From the NCBI GenBank assembly GCA_018434945.1, contig JAHDOI010000044.1, positions 1-64,000 on the forward strand: DNA of 64,000 nt, read 5' to 3'. This document shows, piece by piece, positions 46,085 to 63,657 of the stretch. Below the pieces are notes generated by a model that worked only from the letters and a program-made list of their open reading frames with translations, was not told where the DNA came from and searched no databases. Source of the DNA: Selenomonadales bacterium. GTDB taxonomy: Bacteria; Bacillota; Negativicutes; Sporomusales; UBA7701. Position 1 is the stretch's first letter, and each line of letters starts with the position of its first letter. A program made the translations under genes and the position numbers.

Positions 46085-48640
46085 TCATCCTGGGCTTTTG
46101 CCGCCCGGCGGCTGTTTGATAGGCAGCTTAATCGTAAAAGTCGCCCCCGAGCTGCCGTCGCTTGCGACCGAAATCTGGCCGTGATGCTTGTTCACGACGA
46201 TATCGTAGGAAATGCTCAGCCCGAGGCCGGTGCCCTGGCCGACCGGCTTGGTCGTGAAGAACGGGTTGAAAATAACCGAACCGATCTCCGCCGGGATGCC
46301 CGGCCCGTTGTCCTCGATATCGCAGCATATATACCTGTCGTCGCGGTAACTGCGGATCTTTATCAGGCCGGTCGCGCCCGGATGTTTGCTTTTCACAGCC
46401 TGGGCGGCATTGAGGATGATGTTGAGCAGCACCTGGTTCACCCGGCCTCCCACCGCCTCGACCGCCGGAATATCGCCGTAAACCGCCTCCACATTCGCCA
46501 CGTATTTTATCTCGTTGCGGGCCACGATCAGCGTATTTTTTATTCCCGCATTCAGATCGTACTCCTCGAAAACCTCCTGGTGGTCGACGCGGGAAAACAG
46601 CAGCAGCGCCTTGACGATGTTCGCCACGCGGCCGATCCCGTCGCCCGTCTCGGCGAACAGCGGCGTCAGATCCTGAAGGATATAGTCGAGCCTTGCCCTC
46701 TTCTCCAGCGCCGCGATTTCGTCCGCCAGACCCCGCACACGCTCGGTGTCCCCGGCCAGCGCGCTCCGGCCGAGTTTCCGGTAAGCGTCGATAACCCCGG
46801 CAATCCGTCCGAGATATTGCTGCAGCGTATCGAAATTGCTCACAACGAAGCTGAGCGGATTGTTGATCTCATGGGCCACGCCGGCGGCCAGCTGCCCGAT
46901 ACCGGCCATCTTTTCCTGCTGTACGAGGTGGGCCTGCGTCTGCTGCAGCTTCTCCAGCGCCTCCCGCAGCTCGGCGTTTCTGTCCTCGAGCGCCCGTTCC
47001 GTTTCCTTCTGCTCGGTGATGTCCTGGTTGGCCCCGTACCACATAACAGGCCTGCCGTCGGCGTCCTTGACGATATTCACCCTCACGACGATCGTCCGCA
47101 CCGCGCCGTCGCGGCGGATGATGCGGTGTTCCACCTGGGTGGAATAACACCCGGGGCTCGCCAGGGCTCTTTGCACTTCATTTTCCACCACCCAGGCGTC
47201 CTCCGGGTGGACGAACTCCCTGGCGTAAGCCTCCGGGGTCATGAACCGGCCTTCCCGGGCCGTATCCGTGCCGTAAATGGCATAAAACTCGTCGTTGAAC
47301 TCGAAACTCTGCTTATCGGTGCGGAAACGCCACGGACCGAGGTGGGCCAGTTCGGCCGCCAGCGATAGAGACTCCCTGCTCACGCGGAGAGCTTCTTCCA
47401 TCGCCTTCAGCTCGGTAATGTCCTGCTGGATGCACAGATAATAGGCGACCTTGCCCTCGGCGTTCAGCACCGCCGATATCGACGCCAGCACCCAGAAAAG
47501 CTCGCCGTTCTTTTTCCTGTTGCAGAATTCCCCCCGCCACTCCCGCCCCGCCTCGACGGTCGCCCAAACCTCGCTATAGTAGTCGTCGGGGTGGACGCCC
47601 GATTTAAGGCAGTCGCGCGGTGACATGCCGAACACTTCCTCGGCGGCATAGCCCGTCACCTGAGTGAACTTGGCGTTTACGTAGGTAATCCTCCCGTCCG
47701 TATCGGCGATCAGCACGATGCCGGGACTTTGATCGACCGCCAGGGAAAGCTTGCGGATCTTCTCCTCCGTCTGCACCCGCCCGGAAATATCCTCCGAAAC
47801 CTCCACAACCGCCACGACGGTCCCGTCATCGTCCTTGACGGGTGATGCCACCAGCCTGATATACTTCTCGCCTTGTTCCAGCGAAAGCTTCAAGACGACC
47901 TCGTGAACCCTGCCGTCGAGAAAAGCCTCCTTCACCGGGCAGTCCGGGCAGATGCTCGTCTTAGCTTGGTTGAATGGCACGTAACAATACGGGTTCTGAG
48001 AAAAATCGACATCAGGGAACAGCTGCTGAAGATACTTGTTCGCCGCCAGAACCCGCATCGCGGGATCAATGACGGTCATGCCGAAATGCGCGCTGTCCAT
48101 GAGGCTCCTCGCCACAGCCTCCGACTTCTTCAAAGCCTCTTCGGCCCGCACGCGCTCGGCGATCTCCTGCTGGGCAGCCGCGTACAGACGGGCGTTCTCT
48201 AACGCCAGCGACGCCAGGTCGGCGAAACTGGCCAGCAGCTCCGGGCCGTAATTGCTAAACGCCGCCGTTTTGTCCGCGGCAAGGAAACTTATGACACCGA
48301 CCGTCTTCCCCGCGTACTTGAGCGGCAGCCCCATGATCGACCCGATCCAGTCGAAGCGGGGGTCGTCGCTGCGCAGCGGCCACCGGCGGTAATCGTTCAC
48401 CACCACCGGCCTGCCTGTCGCCAAAATCTCGGCGTTCATACCGACATCCGCCGGGAACGTCTGGCCGACATATCCCGCGCACGCACCGGTTCCGGCCCTC
48501 ACCGCAAGCTCCCGGCCGTTGTCGCTCAGCAGCAAAACAAACGCATTCTCCGTGCCCGCAAGCGCCGCCGCCCTGTTGGCAATCTGCTCCAATACTTCGT
48601 CGATATCCCGCTGTGGAGCGACCGTCTCTCGTCCCGACAT
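46085..48640 (-). CDS. Multi-PAS sensor histidine kinase with GAF domain
   Basis: The 851-residue protein consists of a GAF domain (about 1-155), a PAS with Cys-rich loop ([11 protein letters not shown], about 235), two more PAS domains with PAC segments, a coiled linker, HisKA with the phospho-acceptor in [11 protein letters not shown] and a HATPase domain ([29 protein letters not shown]). No membrane segments are present, so it senses a cytoplasmic signal. No response regulator gene is adjacent. The third PAS domain closely resembles those of the kinase at 58592 ([11 protein letters not shown]...EGRFM). Confidence 0.92.
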
Positions 48641-54536: not shown

Positions 54537-55868
54537 ATGAGGAACTTCCCCTTGAGCCGCGCCGTCAAAGCCTTCGCCACCATGAAAACGGGCCTTGCCC
54601 TGCTGGCGGTCATCATCGTCCTCGCCGTCGCCGGCACCCTCATCCCCCAGGAGCGCGACATCCACGCCGCCGGTCCCGTCCTCAGCTTCCTCTACCACAC
54701 CGTCGGGCTCGGCGACCTATATCACAGCTGGTGGTTCAGCTCGCTGCTGCTGCTGCTCTGCCTCAATGTCGCCGTCTGTTCGGCCGTCCGCCTGCCTGCC
54801 CTGTGGCGCGATACCTTCGCCCCTCCGGTCTGGCCGGACGCCATCGCCTGGCAGCGCGAATGCCCGCTCGCCGCTCCGCCCGCCGAAGCCGCCGCGCTAC
54901 TGAAAAAAAGCCTCTCCCAGGGAGGGTTCCGGGTTTGGGACATGGGCCAGGGCCGCATATACGCCCGCAAAGGCCGGGCGGCCCCCTGGGGAACCTTTCT
55001 CGTCCACGCCTCGATACTGCTCATCGCCCTCGGCGGTCTCTACGGCAGCCTGGCAGGCTTCCGGTACGCCGTCACCCTCGCGCCCGGCGAAACGGTCGCC
55101 ATCGGCACCGGCAGCCATCCCGGCGTAGGCCGGCCCTTCGAAATACGGCTGCGCGGCTTCACCACCGAACTCTACCCCGACGGGCGGGTATCGGACTGGA
55201 TAAGCAGCCTGTCGGTCGTCAGGGACGGGGCCGAGCTCGCCAGTCAGGACATAAAAGTCAACCACCCGCTGTCCTTCCAGGGCATCTCCTTCTACCAGGC
55301 CTCCTACACCACCCTTTACGATGCGGAGCGACGCAGGGAAGGGAAGCCGCAGGGGACCGTCCGTGCCGGCGAAAAACAGCCGATCATCCTCGACGAACAT
55401 CAGGGCATCGCCGTCATCCCGCTCAAATACCTGCCCGACTTCGACCCCCGGCAGCCGCACGTCAGCCGGTCGGCCGAACCGCTCAACCCTCACGTCATAT
55501 GCGCCCTCTACAGCGACGGCCGCCCTCTGGGCATGAACGCCTTCCCGCTCGGCAAACCGATCACCTTCCCCGGCTATGATACCGAGCTCATCTTCCGCGC
55601 CGTCATCCAGGCCTCGGGGCTGGACGTGAAATACGACCCCGGCCTGCCGCTCGTGTTCGCCGGCTTCGCCGTCATGAGCGCGGCCTTCTTCCTCAGCCTC
55701 TACCCGCGCCGCCGCGTAGTGTTTGCCGTAATAACCCCCGCCGGCGCTCAGTCGGCCGTCGCCATAGCCATCTTCGGAAAATCGCCGCTTTTGGCCGAAG
55801 AACTGGCGCGGCTGTGCGCAGCCCTCACATCCGCCGAAGATAAACAAACCCCCGAGGAGGCCAGGTAG
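54537..55868 (+). CDS. resB: Cytochrome c biogenesis protein ResB (Ccs1)
   Basis: The 443-residue membrane protein has a ResB N-terminal segment (two membrane helices, then WWFSSLLLLLCLNVAVC), a large extracytoplasmic domain (about 160-370) and a last membrane helix near 380-400. With CcsA it delivers haem to apocytochromes in system II. The next gene overlaps its stop by one base. Its cargo is obviously the multihaem NrfH and NrfA encoded just downstream. Confidence 0.93.
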   Translation: MRNFPLSRAVKAFATMKTGLALLAVIIVLAVAGTLIPQERDIHAAGPVLSFLYHTVGLGDLYHSWWFSSLLLLLCLNVAVCSAVRLPALWRDTFAPPVWPDAIAWQRECPLAAPPAEAAALLKKSLSQGGFRVWDMGQGRIYARKGRAAPWGTFLVHASILLIALGGLYGSLAGFRYAVTLAPGETVAIGTGSHPGVGRPFEIRLRGFTTELYPDGRVSDWISSLSVVRDGAELASQDIKVNHPLSFQGISFYQASYTTLYDAERRREGKPQGTVRAGEKQPIILDEHQGIAVIPLKYLPDFDPRQPHVSRSAEPLNPHVICALYSDGRPLGMNAFPLGKPITFPGYDTELIFRAVIQASGLDVKYDPGLPLVFAGFAVMSAAFFLSLYPRRRVVFAVITPAGAQSAVAIAIFGKSPLLAEELARLCAALTSAEDKQTPEEAR

Positions 55869-56695
55869 TGCCCAACTACGAAATACCGGTCATCGTCACG
55901 GCATTTTTCCTCTATTTTCTCGCCGCCATCTGTTACATCAGCCACCTCGTATACCTACGCCCGGTCCTGGCGCGCCTCGGCCGTCTGGCCGCGGCCGCCG
56001 GCCTCGCCGCCAACATAGCCGCGGCGGTGCTCAGAACACTCGCCTCCGGCCAGGCCCCCTTCGCCAATATGTACGAATTCGGCATCGTCATGGTGGCCGT
56101 CACCGTCGGCGCCTACCTATGGGTCGACCTTAAGCTCGGCCAGGCGGCCCTGGGCGCCTTTGCCCTTCCCGTGGCCTTCCTGTTCACCGGCGTGTTCGTC
56201 CTCTTCTACCAGGACGCCAAGCCGCTCATGCCAGCCCTCAAGAGCAACTGGCTGCTCGCCCATGTCGCCACGGCCGTCATTGCCTACGGGGCGCTGACCT
56301 TCTCCTTCGCGGTCGCCCTCCTCTACCGCTGGCGGTCCCGCCTCGGAGCCGGCGGCGGCGATCCCGCCCTCCTCGCCCTTCTTCCCGGACTCCCCGTCCT
56401 CGAAGAAATGCTTACCCGGGCAATCCTCCTGGCCATGCCCTTCCTCACCCTGCTCATCATCACCGGCGCGGTGTGGGCCGAGTACGCCTGGGGCTCCTAC
56501 TGGCGGTGGGACCCGAAAGAAACCTGGTCGCTCATCACCTGGCTCGTCTACGCCGTCTACCTCCATGGCCGCGCCGTCTACGCCTGGCAGGGCAAAACCG
56601 CGGCCAACTGGGCCATCGCCGGCTTCCTCGTCGTGGTCTTCACCTTCATCGGCGTAAACATACTGTTACCGGGACTGCACAGCTACGCTCTATAA
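55868..56695 (+). CDS. ccsA: Cytochrome c biogenesis protein CcsA (ResC)
   Basis: The 275-residue membrane protein has about eight helices and the haem-handling WWD-like motif in WAEYAWGSYWRWDPKETWSL (about 203-222), with conserved His residues in flanking loops (SHLVYLRPV near 27, LAHVATAVIAYG near 135). It starts at GTG 55868, overlapping the ResB stop. It is partner of ResB and the second gene of the four-gene cytochrome operon. Confidence 0.95.
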   Translation: MPNYEIPVIVTAFFLYFLAAICYISHLVYLRPVLARLGRLAAAAGLAANIAAAVLRTLASGQAPFANMYEFGIVMVAVTVGAYLWVDLKLGQAALGAFALPVAFLFTGVFVLFYQDAKPLMPALKSNWLLAHVATAVIAYGALTFSFAVALLYRWRSRLGAGGGDPALLALLPGLPVLEEMLTRAILLAMPFLTLLIITGAVWAEYAWGSYWRWDPKETWSLITWLVYAVYLHGRAVYAWQGKTAANWAIAGFLVVVFTFIGVNILLPGLHSYAL

Positions 56696-56736
56696 ATCAC
56701 GATCGCACTATTCTTAACGAGAGGGGGAAGGAAGTT

Positions 56737-57225
56737 TTGCAGCCTTCACCGGCGCCGGACAGGAAAGCGCTCAAGTACGGCATCGCAGGCGCCGTGGCCA
56801 TGCTGGCCGTAGCCCTGATGATGAGCGCCAGCCTCGCTTACGTCGACCAACCCCAATTCTGCGGCAGCTGCCACTCCATGCGCGAGGTATACGGCACATT
56901 CGCCGCGTCCACCCACAAGCAATTCGTCTGCGGCGACTGTCACCTGCCCCAGCAGAATTTCGCCGTCAAACTGTCGGCCAAAACCAGGAGCGGCATCAGC
57001 CATGTCTACCACGAAACCCTCCAGGATTATCCCCAGCCGCTGACCGTCTCCGCGGAGGGCAAGACCATCCTCGCCGACAACTGCCGCCGTTGCCACGCCA
57101 GCACGATCGAGAACACCCCCATGGCCGCGGCCGGCACAAGCTGCACAGCCTGCCACCGCGCCCTCGTGCACGACGAACTCAACCTCGGCAAGAAACTAGG
57201 GAAGGGGGGTCTCGTTCTTGAATAA
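56737..57225 (+). CDS. nrfH: Cytochrome c nitrite reductase small subunit NrfH
   Basis: The 162-residue protein has an N-terminal membrane anchor (residues about 12-35) and four haem c motifs: CGSCH, CGDCH, CRRCH and CTACH. It belongs to the NapC/NirT/NrfH family and takes electrons from menaquinol to NrfA. The start is TTG 56737 behind GGGGGAAGG. It lies 41 bases after ccsA and overlaps nrfA by 8 bases. Confidence 0.95.
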   Translation: MQPSPAPDRKALKYGIAGAVAMLAVALMMSASLAYVDQPQFCGSCHSMREVYGTFAASTHKQFVCGDCHLPQQNFAVKLSAKTRSGISHVYHETLQDYPQPLTVSAEGKTILADNCRRCHASTIENTPMAAAGTSCTACHRALVHDELNLGKKLGKGGLVLE

Positions 57226-58504
57226 CAGCCAAAAAATCCTCGCGGCGACAGCCATCCTGCTGCTATGCTTCTTCGGCGTCGTCATCTTCCGCGTCTGGGG
57301 CGTCCAGCCGGTGGCCGCCATAAAAACCGTAGCTGTCGCCAAAGGGGAATACGACCCGGCCGTCTGGGGAAAATCCTACCCGCTGGAATACGCCAGCTTC
57401 CAGAAGAACAAGGAAATGAAGCCGTCCCCCACCGGCTACGGCGGCAGCGTCCTCGTCCAGAAATGGGATATGCAGCCTGAGCTCAAGACCAACTTCGCCG
57501 GCTACGGCTTCAGCCTTGACTACAAGGAAGACCGGGGCCACGTATACGCCCTCATCGACCAGCTCGAATCCAAACGGGTCAACGCCCAGACTGTGGGCAC
57601 CTGCATAACCTGCAAGACCCCCTACATCGAGAAACTGTTCGCCGAACAGGGCTGGAACTATACCCGCACGCCCCTGCTGCCCATCATCGAACAGGCCAAG
57701 CACCCGGTCAGCTGCGCCAGCTGCCACGACCCGGCGACCATGAACCTCAGGGTCGTCAACCCCGCCTTCAAAGAAGCCATGGCCCGCCTGGGCACAGACC
57801 TCACGAAAGCCACGCGCGAGGAAATGCGTTCCTACGTCTGCGGCCAGTGCCATGCCGAATACTACTTCGAGCCCGGCACCAACCGCCTCGTCTTCCCGTG
57901 GGACAAAGGCTTCACCCCGCAGGCCATGTACGAATACTACGCCACCAAACCCAACGGGTTCGAGAAAGACTGGGTCCACGCCGTCTCCGGCGCCCCCATC
58001 CTCAAAGGCCAGCATCCCGACTTCGAAGAATGGAAAAACGGCACCCATGGCAAATCCGGCGTCTCCTGCGCCGACTGCCACATGCCGTACGTCCTCCAGG
58101 GGGGCCAGAAATACACCTCCCACCACATGACCAGCCCGCTGCACAATATCAAAGAATCCTGCCTCACCTGCCACCGCGGCCAGAACGAAGCCTGGGCGCT
58201 CGACCAGGTAAGGACGAAACAGGACGCCGTCTTCCAGATGCAGCACGCCGCCGGGCAGAAAATCGCTCAGGCCCATGAAATCATCAGGAAAGCCGCCGAC
58301 GCACCGGGAGCCGACCCCGCCATGCTCGCCCAGGCCCGCGAACACGTGCGCAAAGCCCAGTGGTACTGGGACTACGTGGCTGCCGCCAACTCCATGGGCT
58401 TCCACAACTCCGTCCAGGAGCTCCAGACCCTCGGCCAGGCCTCAGACCTGGCCTGGCAGGCCATCCAGGCCGCCAACCAAGCCGCGGGCCGCAACCTGCT
58501 TTAG
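57218..58504 (+). CDS. nrfA: Pentahaem cytochrome c nitrite reductase NrfA
   Basis: The 428-residue exported protein has a signal/anchor sequence (about 5-25) and five haem motifs. The first is CITCK, the special CxxCK site of the catalytic haem; the others are CASCH, CGQCH, CADCH and CLTCH. It reduces nitrite to ammonium at the outer face of the membrane with six electrons from NrfH. The start is TTG 57218 inside the end of nrfH, with GGGGGG upstream. Terminator at 58527. Confidence 0.96.
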   Translation: MNNSQKILAATAILLLCFFGVVIFRVWGVQPVAAIKTVAVAKGEYDPAVWGKSYPLEYASFQKNKEMKPSPTGYGGSVLVQKWDMQPELKTNFAGYGFSLDYKEDRGHVYALIDQLESKRVNAQTVGTCITCKTPYIEKLFAEQGWNYTRTPLLPIIEQAKHPVSCASCHDPATMNLRVVNPAFKEAMARLGTDLTKATREEMRSYVCGQCHAEYYFEPGTNRLVFPWDKGFTPQAMYEYYATKPNGFEKDWVHAVSGAPILKGQHPDFEEWKNGTHGKSGVSCADCHMPYVLQGGQKYTSHHMTSPLHNIKESCLTCHRGQNEAWALDQVRTKQDAVFQMQHAAGQKIAQAHEIIRKAADAPGADPAMLAQAREHVRKAQWYWDYVAAANSMGFHNSVQELQTLGQASDLAWQAIQAANQAAGRNLL

Positions 58505-58591: not shown

Positions 58592-60370
58592 TCAGTCGCC
58601 CTTAAACCTGACCACGAACTCCGTACCGTCCGCGCCTGTCGAAAAATCGATGATCGCGCCGTGCCGGGCGGCGATACTGTAGCAGACCGACAAACCCAGC
58701 CCGGTGCCTTTTTCTTTCGTGGTCATAAACGGAGTGCCGATCTTCGCGATCAAATTTTCGGGGATCCCCTCGCCCTCGTCGCGGACTGACAAAACGACGT
58801 CGTTGCCGTCCCTTGCCGTCGCGATCGTAAGGCACCCCTTCCCGGTCATAGCCTCCAGTCCGTTGCGCACCAGATTAATGAGCAGCTGCCTGAACTCGCT
58901 TTCGTCCAGGCGGCTGTCCGGCAGACCGGGCGCCAGATCGAGAACAATCGTCTTCTCCCCCGCCGCCGCGTCCACCTCGAGCAGCGGATAAATAGCGGCT
59001 ATTATCGTATTTATATTCTTCCGTTCCATCTTGACGGCTTTATTCTTCGCGAGGGAAAGAAATCCGGAGATGATTTCGTTTGTCCTGTCAAGCTCGGCGA
59101 TCAGCACCTGAAACATCCCGCACTGGCTCTTGAACTGCTCCTTGCCGGAGAGGAACTGCAGATAGCCGCGGACAGTCGTCAGCGGATTTCTCACCTCATG
59201 GCCGATACTCGCCGCCATCTCGCCGATCAGGTTCAGGCTGTCCAGGCGCTGAACCTCCCGCTGCGCCCGGTAAAGTTCGGTCTGATCGCGGATAATTACC
59301 AGGGCCTGGTCCTTGTTGATCGTCGCCGTACGGATCTCCAGCGAACATACCGAATCGTCGGTCTGGCCGGCATAATTCGCCATCTTGGTCTTCCCCAGCA
59401 GCAGCGACGAAAGGACCAGCTCCCTGACCAGCTCCGCCAGTGGGGCAGGCAGCATATCGCCGACCGTTTCATAGGCCCCCGCCGTCGACAGGTACCCGGC
59501 GAAGTGCTCGGGGACCCGGTAATCGAACAATCTCCCCGCCGCGTCCACCCGCAGCAGCATATCCGGCAGGGCGTTCAGCGTCGCCTTCTGGCGCTCCTCG
59601 CTTTCCCGCAGGGCATTTTCCGCCACAACCCGTTCGGTGATATCCTGATTGCCCCCGAAAATCTTCTCCATGTTGCCGTCGGCACCACGGTTCATCGCTC
59701 CCCGCCACACCCTTATCGTACGGACCGCACCGTCCCGGCGGACGATGCGGTGCTCGAAGATGCTGGGGCCCTGGCTGGCCGAGTCCGCTATCACTTCCCG
59801 CACCATCGGCATATCCGCCGGATGGACAAACTCCCTGACATAGGTTTCCGGGCTCATAAAGCGGCCTTCCCTGGCCACCGTCGTCCCGTAGACGGCGTAA
59901 AACTCGTCGCTGAACTGAAAAAGCCCTCTTTGATAATCGTATTCCCACGGCCCCAGCTGGGCCAGCTGCGCAGCCACCGAGAGCTGCTCGCGGCTGGAGC
60001 GGAGTTCCTCCTCCATCAGCTTGTACCCGGTAATATCCTGGTTGACCCCGAAGGTCCTCTCGATAGCGTTGACGCGGTCCAGGTTCACGATCGCCCATAC
60101 CCTTACGGTGCGCACCGCCCCGTCCCGGCGGACGATGCGGTGCTCGCAGACATTAGGCCGCTGACCTCTGCTCGCCATAGCGAATATTTCCCGTACCAGC
60201 GGCACATCATCAGGGTAGACGAATTCCCTGATATAGGCCTCCGGTTTCATGAAGCGCCCCTCCTGCGCCACGGACGTGCCGTAGATGGCGTAAAAATCGT
60301 CGTTGAACTCGAAAAGATCGACGTCGGTCCGGTACTCCCACGGCCCGAGCTGGGTCCTTTCCGGTACCAT
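58592..60370 (-). CDS. PAS sensor histidine kinase, KinE-like, probably N-terminally shortened
   Basis: The 592-residue frame from ATG 60370 holds two very similar PAS domains (each with the GPWEY...EGRFM...REFV pattern), a third PAS region, HisKA (MAASIGHEVRNPLTTVRGYLQ) and HATPase (LLINLVRNGLEAM, DEGEGIP, GTGLGLS). No membrane segments. It resembles the sporulation and phosphorelay kinases of Firmicutes. The ATG has no clear ribosome site and starts abruptly at a PAS domain. The same frame continues upstream as coding-like sequence to an in-frame TGA at 60488, and beyond that to a strong ribosome site. The intact ancestor was therefore probably longer. Confidence 0.85.
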   Translation of the reverse strand: MVPERTQLGPWEYRTDVDLFEFNDDFYAIYGTSVAQEGRFMKPEAYIREFVYPDDVPLVREIFAMASRGQRPNVCEHRIVRRDGAVRTVRVWAIVNLDRVNAIERTFGVNQDITGYKLMEEELRSSREQLSVAAQLAQLGPWEYDYQRGLFQFSDEFYAVYGTTVAREGRFMSPETYVREFVHPADMPMVREVIADSASQGPSIFEHRIVRRDGAVRTIRVWRGAMNRGADGNMEKIFGGNQDITERVVAENALRESEERQKATLNALPDMLLRVDAAGRLFDYRVPEHFAGYLSTAGAYETVGDMLPAPLAELVRELVLSSLLLGKTKMANYAGQTDDSVCSLEIRTATINKDQALVIIRDQTELYRAQREVQRLDSLNLIGEMAASIGHEVRNPLTTVRGYLQFLSGKEQFKSQCGMFQVLIAELDRTNEIISGFLSLAKNKAVKMERKNINTIIAAIYPLLEVDAAAGEKTIVLDLAPGLPDSRLDESEFRQLLINLVRNGLEAMTGKGCLTIATARDGNDVVLSVRDEGEGIPENLIAKIGTPFMTTKEKGTGLGLSVCYSIAARHGAIIDFSTGADGTEFVVRFKGD

Positions 60371-60487
60371 ATGGGCGACGCCCCGCTCACCGGGAGCGGC
60401 GGGCGTCCCGCCGCGATCAGTCCCGCCAGGGCCTTCCCCCGCCAGCGTCAGCAGCAGTCCCTTATAACAGCGCAGCGCCTCGTCGGC

Positions 60488-60580
60488 TCATATCGCCCTT
60501 ATCTCCTCGTCATTCATCCCGGCGGCGATATCGCGAAGCTTGCCGATGGTTTCCCGCAGGGCCTTAAGCCTGAGATGCAA
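60488..60580 (-). pseudogene. Spo0E-like N-terminal segment cut by in-frame TGA
   Basis: TTG 60580 follows GGAGGAGGG at ideal spacing and opens a 30-residue peptide (LRLKALRETIGKLRDIAAGM, then NDEEIRAI). It ends in a TGA that is in frame with the histidine kinase. After the stop the frame continues ADEALRCYKGLLLTLAGEG. Read through, the segment matches the Spo0E-type pattern (LR..I..L...., then L/I S..ELD....Y). A single TCA-to-TGA change could explain the stop. It may be a broken kinase N-terminus or a short separate gene. Confidence 0.4.
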
Positions 60581-60779
60581 AGCGGCTTCCCTCCTCCAGA
60601 ACAGCTAACCGGTAGTATTTGTTCTAATTCGCGCAATCCCCCGGATGACCTTCCATATTTTTCAAAATCTTTCACGATACGGGTCAATCCTGCCTACTTT
60701 TGTCTTTTCAAGCAGGAAAACAGCCCGAATTGCAGAATATGGTGATGAACATCGGAAATACTTCAGTGGACGGTGGAAA

Positions 60780-61136
60780 ATGGACATCAAAGACAGCGGC
60801 AACAGAACAAAGTTCGACACCGGGGCTGTTAGGGATTACCACGAAGGGAAAGGGCGATACGACTTGATTCCCTGGGATGCCATCCACGAACTGGCGATTC
60901 ACTGCGAGCAAGGCGCAAAAAAATACGGCGAACGGAACTGCGAAAAAGGCATTCCCATGCACTCTCTGATCGACAGCGCCATCAGGCACCTGTCCTGCTA
61001 CATGCGGGGCATGAAAGACGAGCCCCATCTGAGAGCGGCGCTCTGGAACGTCGCCTTCGCCATCTGGATGGAGAAAAACCGGCCCGATATGCAGGACATC
61101 CCTGTCCGCATGTCGCCGCCCGACAACGACGCCTGA
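60780..61136 (+). CDS. DUF5664 protein (dATP/dGTP diphosphohydrolase N-terminal domain type), phage-like
   Basis: The protein of 118 residues has the DUF5664 pattern: GKGRYDLIPWDAIHELA, GAKKYGERNCEKG, SAIRHLSCYMRG and ALWNVAFAIW. The family is mostly found in phages and is linked to nucleotide pools. The start is ATG 60780; the ribosome site (GGTGG) is weak and close, and the frame is open further upstream. It is a single gene with its own terminator, facing the PAS kinase divergently, and may be a phage remnant. Confidence 0.75.
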   Translation: MDIKDSGNRTKFDTGAVRDYHEGKGRYDLIPWDAIHELAIHCEQGAKKYGERNCEKGIPMHSLIDSAIRHLSCYMRGMKDEPHLRAALWNVAFAIWMEKNRPDMQDIPVRMSPPDNDA

Positions 61137-62403: not shown

Positions 62404-63657
62404 CTATAACATCCGCTTCATGGCGGCACACGCCGAACAGCATGTGCTGACGGCGGGATTGTCGAGGAACGCCTGCGGGACATCCCCCCGCCCGACGGGC
62501 TCGAAACCGCGCCGCGCGAAATAACCGGCCGCCGTGTTCGTGAACAGGTAGGCCGCCGCGCTGCCGGCCGCCTCCGCCCGCGCGAGGGCCGCGTCCACCA
62601 GCGCCCCGGCTATGCCCGCCTTGCGCGCAGCGGGCGCGACCGCCAACGACCGGAGCAGGGCAGCGCCGGGCGCGTATTCGCAGCCGACCACGCCCGCGAC
62701 CCCGCCCCGGTCGGCTACCAGGAACCGCTCCCGCCCGGCGGCGATCGCCACCGCCGTCAGCCCGGAAGCCACCAGCAATTCCTCGATAGCCGGCACATCC
62801 TCAGGCCGCGCGGGACGGATCGTGTAATCCTCGCCTGCCGCGAGGAGGCTGGCCGGCTTCTTCGCCCGGATAAAAGCGCTGACGATACTGCCGTTATATT
62901 CCGCCAGCTCCCCGGGCGACGCCCCGGGCACGAGCTTGCCGGCCGCCGGGCTCGTCAGGTCGTAGACCCTGGTAACAACCACCTCGACATCGCCGAAGCC
63001 CGCCTTTTTCAGCTTGTCGGCATACTCGTCATCGGTCAGCGCCCCGGCGATGCAGCCCGACCAGGCCAGCAGATTTTTGCGGACCCCCTCCGGCAGCGGC
63101 CTTGTCGTGACGATATCGGAGACGGCTACCCGGCCGCCCGGCCGCAGAACGCGGAAGATCTCGCGGAAAACCCTGTCCTTGTCGGCCGACAGATTAATGA
63201 CGCAGTTGGAAATGACCACATCGACCGCGTCCGCCGGCAGAGGGATATCCTCGATATGCCCCTTCAGAAACTCGGCGTTGGTCAGTCCCGCCTTGGCCTT
63301 GTTGGCGTTGGCCTCCGCCAGCATCTCGTCCGTCATATCCAGTCCGTACGCCTTGCCGGCCGGCCCCACCCGCCTGGCGGACAACAGCACGTCAAGCCCG
63401 GCGCCGCTGCCGAGGTCCAGGACGGTCTCGCCGGCGTAAAGGCTCCCCAGCGCCGTGGGATTGCCGCAGCCCAGGGACGTCGCGAGCAGGTCGGTCGGCA
63501 ACCCCTCGACCTCGGCGGCCTGATAAAGGTTGCCGGTTATCACCTGCGTTGCGTCCCGGCCGTCGCCGCAGCAGCCCGAAGAGCCGCAGCACCCGGATTT
63601 TGAAGTAATAGCCGCCGCGTACTTCCTGCGGACCTGTTCACGGATATCCTCGCTCAT
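62404..63657 (-). CDS. arsM: Arsenite methyltransferase ArsM fused to an ArsN2-like GNAT domain
   Basis: The 417-residue fusion has an N-terminal Cys patch ([10 protein letters not shown], about 22-31). An ArsM-type SAM methyltransferase follows ([13 protein letters not shown]) with the three catalytic Cys contexts of bacterial ArsM: LGCGNP, SNCVINL and SGCIAG. From about residue 275 it continues as a GNAT acetyltransferase ([15 protein letters not shown]) with a CCSAC motif near the C-terminus. ArsM methylates As(III); the ArsN2 family accompanies arsenic operons. GGAGGTAAATC precedes the ATG. It follows a DUF318/ArsP-type permease gene by 51 bases, supporting arsenic resistance. Confidence 0.88.

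Follow-up and report, generated by a model that had tools for sequence, protein, structure and literature searches.

Does a kinase frame broken by a single stop codon record a fusion between two sporulation activities, or is it a once-ordinary gene in which a stop codon has appeared? The locus lies in a 64,000-nucleotide stretch of a Selenomonadales genome (contig JAHDOI010000044.1, positions 1 to 64,000), which we call the window. An earlier note, made from the letters alone, had described a histidine kinase frame interrupted by TGA within an N-terminus resembling the Spo0E aspartyl-phosphatase motif, and had placed the stop at the conserved Ser of that motif. Our analysis favours, with a probability of about 0.83, a PAS-sensor kinase gene that originally began at TTG 60580 and whose N-terminal module was hit by a nonsense codon, through mutation or, less likely, through a sequence error.

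The kinase frame runs on the minus strand and extends above ATG 60370 to the TGA at 60490-60488, the only stop within it, and then through 30 open codons to TTG 60580 (Table 1). Ahead of this TTG is a near-perfect Shine-Dalgarno sequence, ucuGGAGGAGGgaagcc, whose predicted pairing with the anti-Shine-Dalgarno was -12.6 kcal/mol, compared with -8.6 kcal/mol at the 1st percentile of random window positions. The frame and the strong ribosome site are thus both as the earlier note had traced them. Two starts below the stop had weaker duplexes: ATG 60370 (-7.5), which opens the longest kinase obtainable after the TGA with a standard start codon, and ATG 60250 (-10.8), which falls inside the first PAS domain (PAS1).

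Table 1. Features of the interrupted kinase locus and its divergent neighbour, in window coordinates.
Feature	Position	Strand	Remarks
PAS-PAS-(PAS-like)-HisKA-HATPase sensor histidine kinase, full frame, probably the original one	58592..60580	-	one TGA; intact orthologue in G001
In-frame TGA	60488..60490	-	opposite GAG or a one-codon gap in the intact orthologue
Shine-Dalgarno sequence GGAGGAGG	60590..60597	-	upstream of TTG 60580; duplex -12.6 kcal/mol
Kinase ORF, 592 aa	58592..60370	-	from ATG 60370; two PAS_3, PAS-like region, HisKA, HATPase_c
N-terminal module, lineage-specific, with the stop inside	60437..60580	-	about 48 codons; not Spo0E
Linker from module to PAS1, poorly conserved	60371..60436	-	pN/pS 0.93, codons 49-74
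Divergent neighbour, dATP/dGTP diphosphohydrolase N-terminal domain family	60645..61136	+	PF18909, 4.3e-23

That the joined frame from TTG 60580 to 58592 was a real gene follows from an uninterrupted orthologue, such as the earlier note had proposed to look for, in G001, a genome of the same genus. At G001:C1:184622-186586, a 678-codon frame without any stop was 76% identical to the window protein across query residues 5-661 (E=0). The gene is also syntenic, as the divergent neighbour in the window has a counterpart at the same place in G001, with 91% identity across 123 residues. One search covered 40 relatives and found matches in two same-genus genomes, G001 and G003, the copy in G003 being partial and beginning at a contig edge. 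No further orthologue was recovered among 28 genomes of the order or in a 398-genome phylum sample in which few candidates were scored per genome, so that G001 held the only full-length orthologue in the searched set.

The window gene and its G001 orthologue have in common their domain order, a TTG start with a Shine-Dalgarno sequence and the divergent neighbour; they differ in that the G001 gene is without an internal stop and is one codon shorter near the stop position. The G001 TTG stands at the aligned position, and the leading segment that follows it is in the same frame as the rest of the kinase. The codon facing the window TGA is GAG or, depending on the placement of the additional window codon, a gap; this part of the alignment consists of two sequences, which leaves the direction of change unfixed. 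ATG 60370 is not kept in G001, where CAA occupies its place, and is unlikely to have been the original start. The sequence upstream of this ATG had been called coding-like, a description that the comparison supports: the first 70 residues of the window protein, with X at the stop, scored 95 against the G001 orthologue, while the best of 5000 shuffles reached 60. Taken separately, the segments on either side of the TGA also exceeded all 5000 of 5000 shuffles, and the remaining five frames of the stretch scored only 18-24.

Constraint along the gene was uneven. Between the window and G001, pN/pS was 0.13 for HisKA and HATPase together and 0.56 for the N-terminal module, in which amino acid identity was about 45% over 47 aligned codons; constraint is lowest in the module and in the linker behind it (0.93). 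The stop therefore lies in the fastest-evolving part, where such a change is most easily tolerated. Pairwise pN/pS mostly reflects history before the stop arose and is thus no proof that the gene works today. As a counterpoint to the nonsense reading, the well-conserved core would equally fit a working gene with a downstream start.

The module is best read, on its sequence, as a fast-evolving, genus-restricted segment of about 45 residues, which is probably helical; a structure model of the G001 protein built from two sequences gave pLDDT values of about 33-42 across it, too low to read a fold such as the two-helix hairpin of Spo0E. No Pfam family of any kind matched it at E<=10. When 200 genomes of the class were searched, the module was confined to this kinase in G000 and G001. 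Other matches in the class (E 0.009-0.05) were unrelated stretches within larger proteins, and a match at G001:C1:3537065 (E 0.004) fell in a region that contains no such kinase. In a single genome of the 200 (G086, locus L089), the end of a 926-aa frame has a tail, DELEEAVGAIREMAASFDEESIRFVFEELKEY, that is weakly module-like (E 0.028), a likeness probably due to chance.

Downstream of the stop, the domains are intact. Pfam recognized PAS_3 in two stretches (1.9e-14), HisKA (9.4e-12) and HATPase_c (9.1e-21), and only its position leads us to regard the region between PAS2 and HisKA as a third PAS-like one, Pfam being silent there in the window protein. The protein is a sensor histidine kinase, with a phospho-acceptor His in HisKA, a HATPase_c domain and the motifs GHEVRNPL and NLVRNGLEA. 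The catalytic half was closest to the AtoS and KinD models and far under the cut-off of both; with KinD (NCBIfam NF053867), the HisKA and HATPase_c half gave 1.1e-46 and 159 bits against a cut-off of 775. The proposal of a sporulation-type kinase core holds in this sense, the catalytic half being KinD-like and below the family cut-off. Like KinD-like sporulation kinases with PAS_3, the window gene combines this catalytic half with PAS sensors in a genome that has Spo0A; unlike them, it has a different N-terminal sensor part and an interrupted, genus-restricted leading module. Spo0A was present in 11 of the 11 genomes searched (five of the genus and six others of the order), and LpxC and Spo0A are both encoded in the genome of the window, a combination suggestive of a diderm, spore-forming lineage such as the Negativicutes. 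The kinase may feed Spo0A. A scan of the genome's contigs found only a distant kinase.

Several other genes in the window were recorded alongside. A second large PAS/sensor kinase (46097-48169, minus strand) is intact in a frame of 876 aa; its alignment with a G001 gene, which lies about 4 kb downstream of the kinase orthologue described above, spans 691 residues. A cytochrome c552 nitrite reductase gene of the NrfA type (PF02335) occupies 55868-58504 on the plus strand, and the frames ahead of it resemble a small multihaem cytochrome and a cytochrome-biogenesis protein. At 62404-63657 on the minus strand, a methyltransferase, which we take from its sequence to be arsenite-methyltransferase-like, is fused in one frame with a GNAT acetyltransferase domain.

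If the favoured reading is correct, TTG 60580 would be the native start, and the protein would have opened with the short, probably helical, genus-restricted module. The nonsense codon would stem from a point mutation or a small insertion, a sequence error being the less likely source. Initiation at TTG 60580 would now yield a 30-residue peptide and then stop, and any kinase would have to come from the weaker restarts downstream, either ATG 60370, which leaves both PAS domains whole, or ATG 60250, which lies in PAS1. The likely outcome would be a kinase made in smaller amounts, with its sensor and core otherwise intact, or else early gene loss.

A second account, which is unlikely but keeps more weight than the others and overlaps the minor branch of the favoured reading, is that the TGA is absent from the organism and was introduced by sequencing or assembly. 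The assembly is a draft of 100 contigs, an intact orthologue is known and the one-codon length difference falls right at the stop. Against this, an in-frame difference of three bases is untypical of errors, and the other real orthologues aligned in the common neighbourhood have no internal stop, giving no sign of generally poor sequence; the stops that were counted in the neighbourhood lie, by our reading, in shadow frames overlapping real genes. With real orthologues nearby free of stops, the interruption is a single-gene event, in keeping with the favoured reading. The species is represented by one assembly only, and mutation and sequence error, as well as the age of the stop, are therefore not separable.

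The 30-codon ORF might instead be a leader peptide with a regulatory role, acting on the kinase through reinitiation at ATG 60370 or through coupling there. The strong Shine-Dalgarno sequence of the short ORF and the modest one at ATG 60370 would suit such an arrangement, but stop and ATG lie about 115 nt apart, a long distance for coupling, the G001 orthologue is one continuous frame from which the stop is absent, and similarity to G001 runs on beyond the stop in the same frame. We consider a leader peptide very improbable.

Equally improbable is that the TGA is decoded as selenocysteine, or otherwise recoded, to give a full-length kinase. Selenocysteine is very probably used by this organism, since SelB is present in the genome and formate dehydrogenase genes carry an in-frame TGA; a bulged hairpin with G at the loop start can also be drawn 3' of the kinase TGA. 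RNA folding at this TGA was nevertheless no better than that of shuffles (z 1.25, -0.36 and 0.83), Rfam gave no match there, and loose hairpin criteria were satisfied after 59% of sampled window TGAs, with an equally long stem in 16%. The doubt expressed earlier about a SECIS element after the TGA was thus justified, as the hairpin is at background level, in a test that is weak: the single formate dehydrogenase control site also fell within background. The stronger argument against recoding comes from the orthologue, the sole full-length homologue, which has Glu or a gap and not Cys at the TGA position, in a stretch that is poorly conserved and non-catalytic. Mutation, sequencing error and recoding had all been offered as sources of the stop; of these, mutation or error is likeliest, and recoding is unlikely on both orthologue and fold. 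A TGA that is genuine and fixed in this species, with read-through or restart yielding one kinase form that has the N-terminal module and another that lacks it, the pair serving as a regulatory switch, seems to us slightly less probable still.

The weakest account is the one that drew attention to the locus, a fusion of the kinase to a Spo0E aspartyl-phosphatase module whose conserved Ser has become a stop, and we regard it as close to untenable. The likeness is superficial and lies in a comparable short length and an LR..I..LR pattern in the window segment, together with a weak, low-confidence prediction of helix for the segment. PF09388 did not match at E<=10 the window segment, whether with X or with Ser at the stop, or the G001 segment. 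We built a local Spo0E model from 17 Spo0E domains of related genomes, with two of its own members as controls; these real members scored 78-86 bits, whereas the G001 segment scored -1.4 and the window segment 3.6 with X. Typing in Ser raised the latter to 7.7, above all 1000 shuffles (maximum 6.5), but this score presupposes the very residue at issue and falls far short of the real members. The signature motif of Spo0E is SxxxD (PMC11115286). Reading the stop as Ser gives S-A-D-E-A instead, and S with D at +4 is absent throughout the G001 module. Spo0E was found above the Pfam cut-off in none of the five genus genomes (G000-G004), while each of the six other genomes of the order had one or more. 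Titles and abstracts of the literature on Spo0E in Negativicutes held nothing specific to this kinase. The Spo0E-like N-terminus is therefore rejected by the profile search; the position of the stop is not that of a conserved Ser, as Glu or a gap occupies it in the orthologue; and the joining of opposed kinase and Spo0E activities fails with them, as the segment is not Spo0E.

The comparison settles that this locus is not a kinase-Spo0E fusion, and it supplies a probable original start and a domain layout for the gene family. The nonsense codon in the N-terminal module is most likely an ordinary local mutation or a sequence error, of little consequence beyond annotation; if the stop is real, it would be a modest example of the loss, in one species, of the front portion of a sporulation-type sensor kinase.
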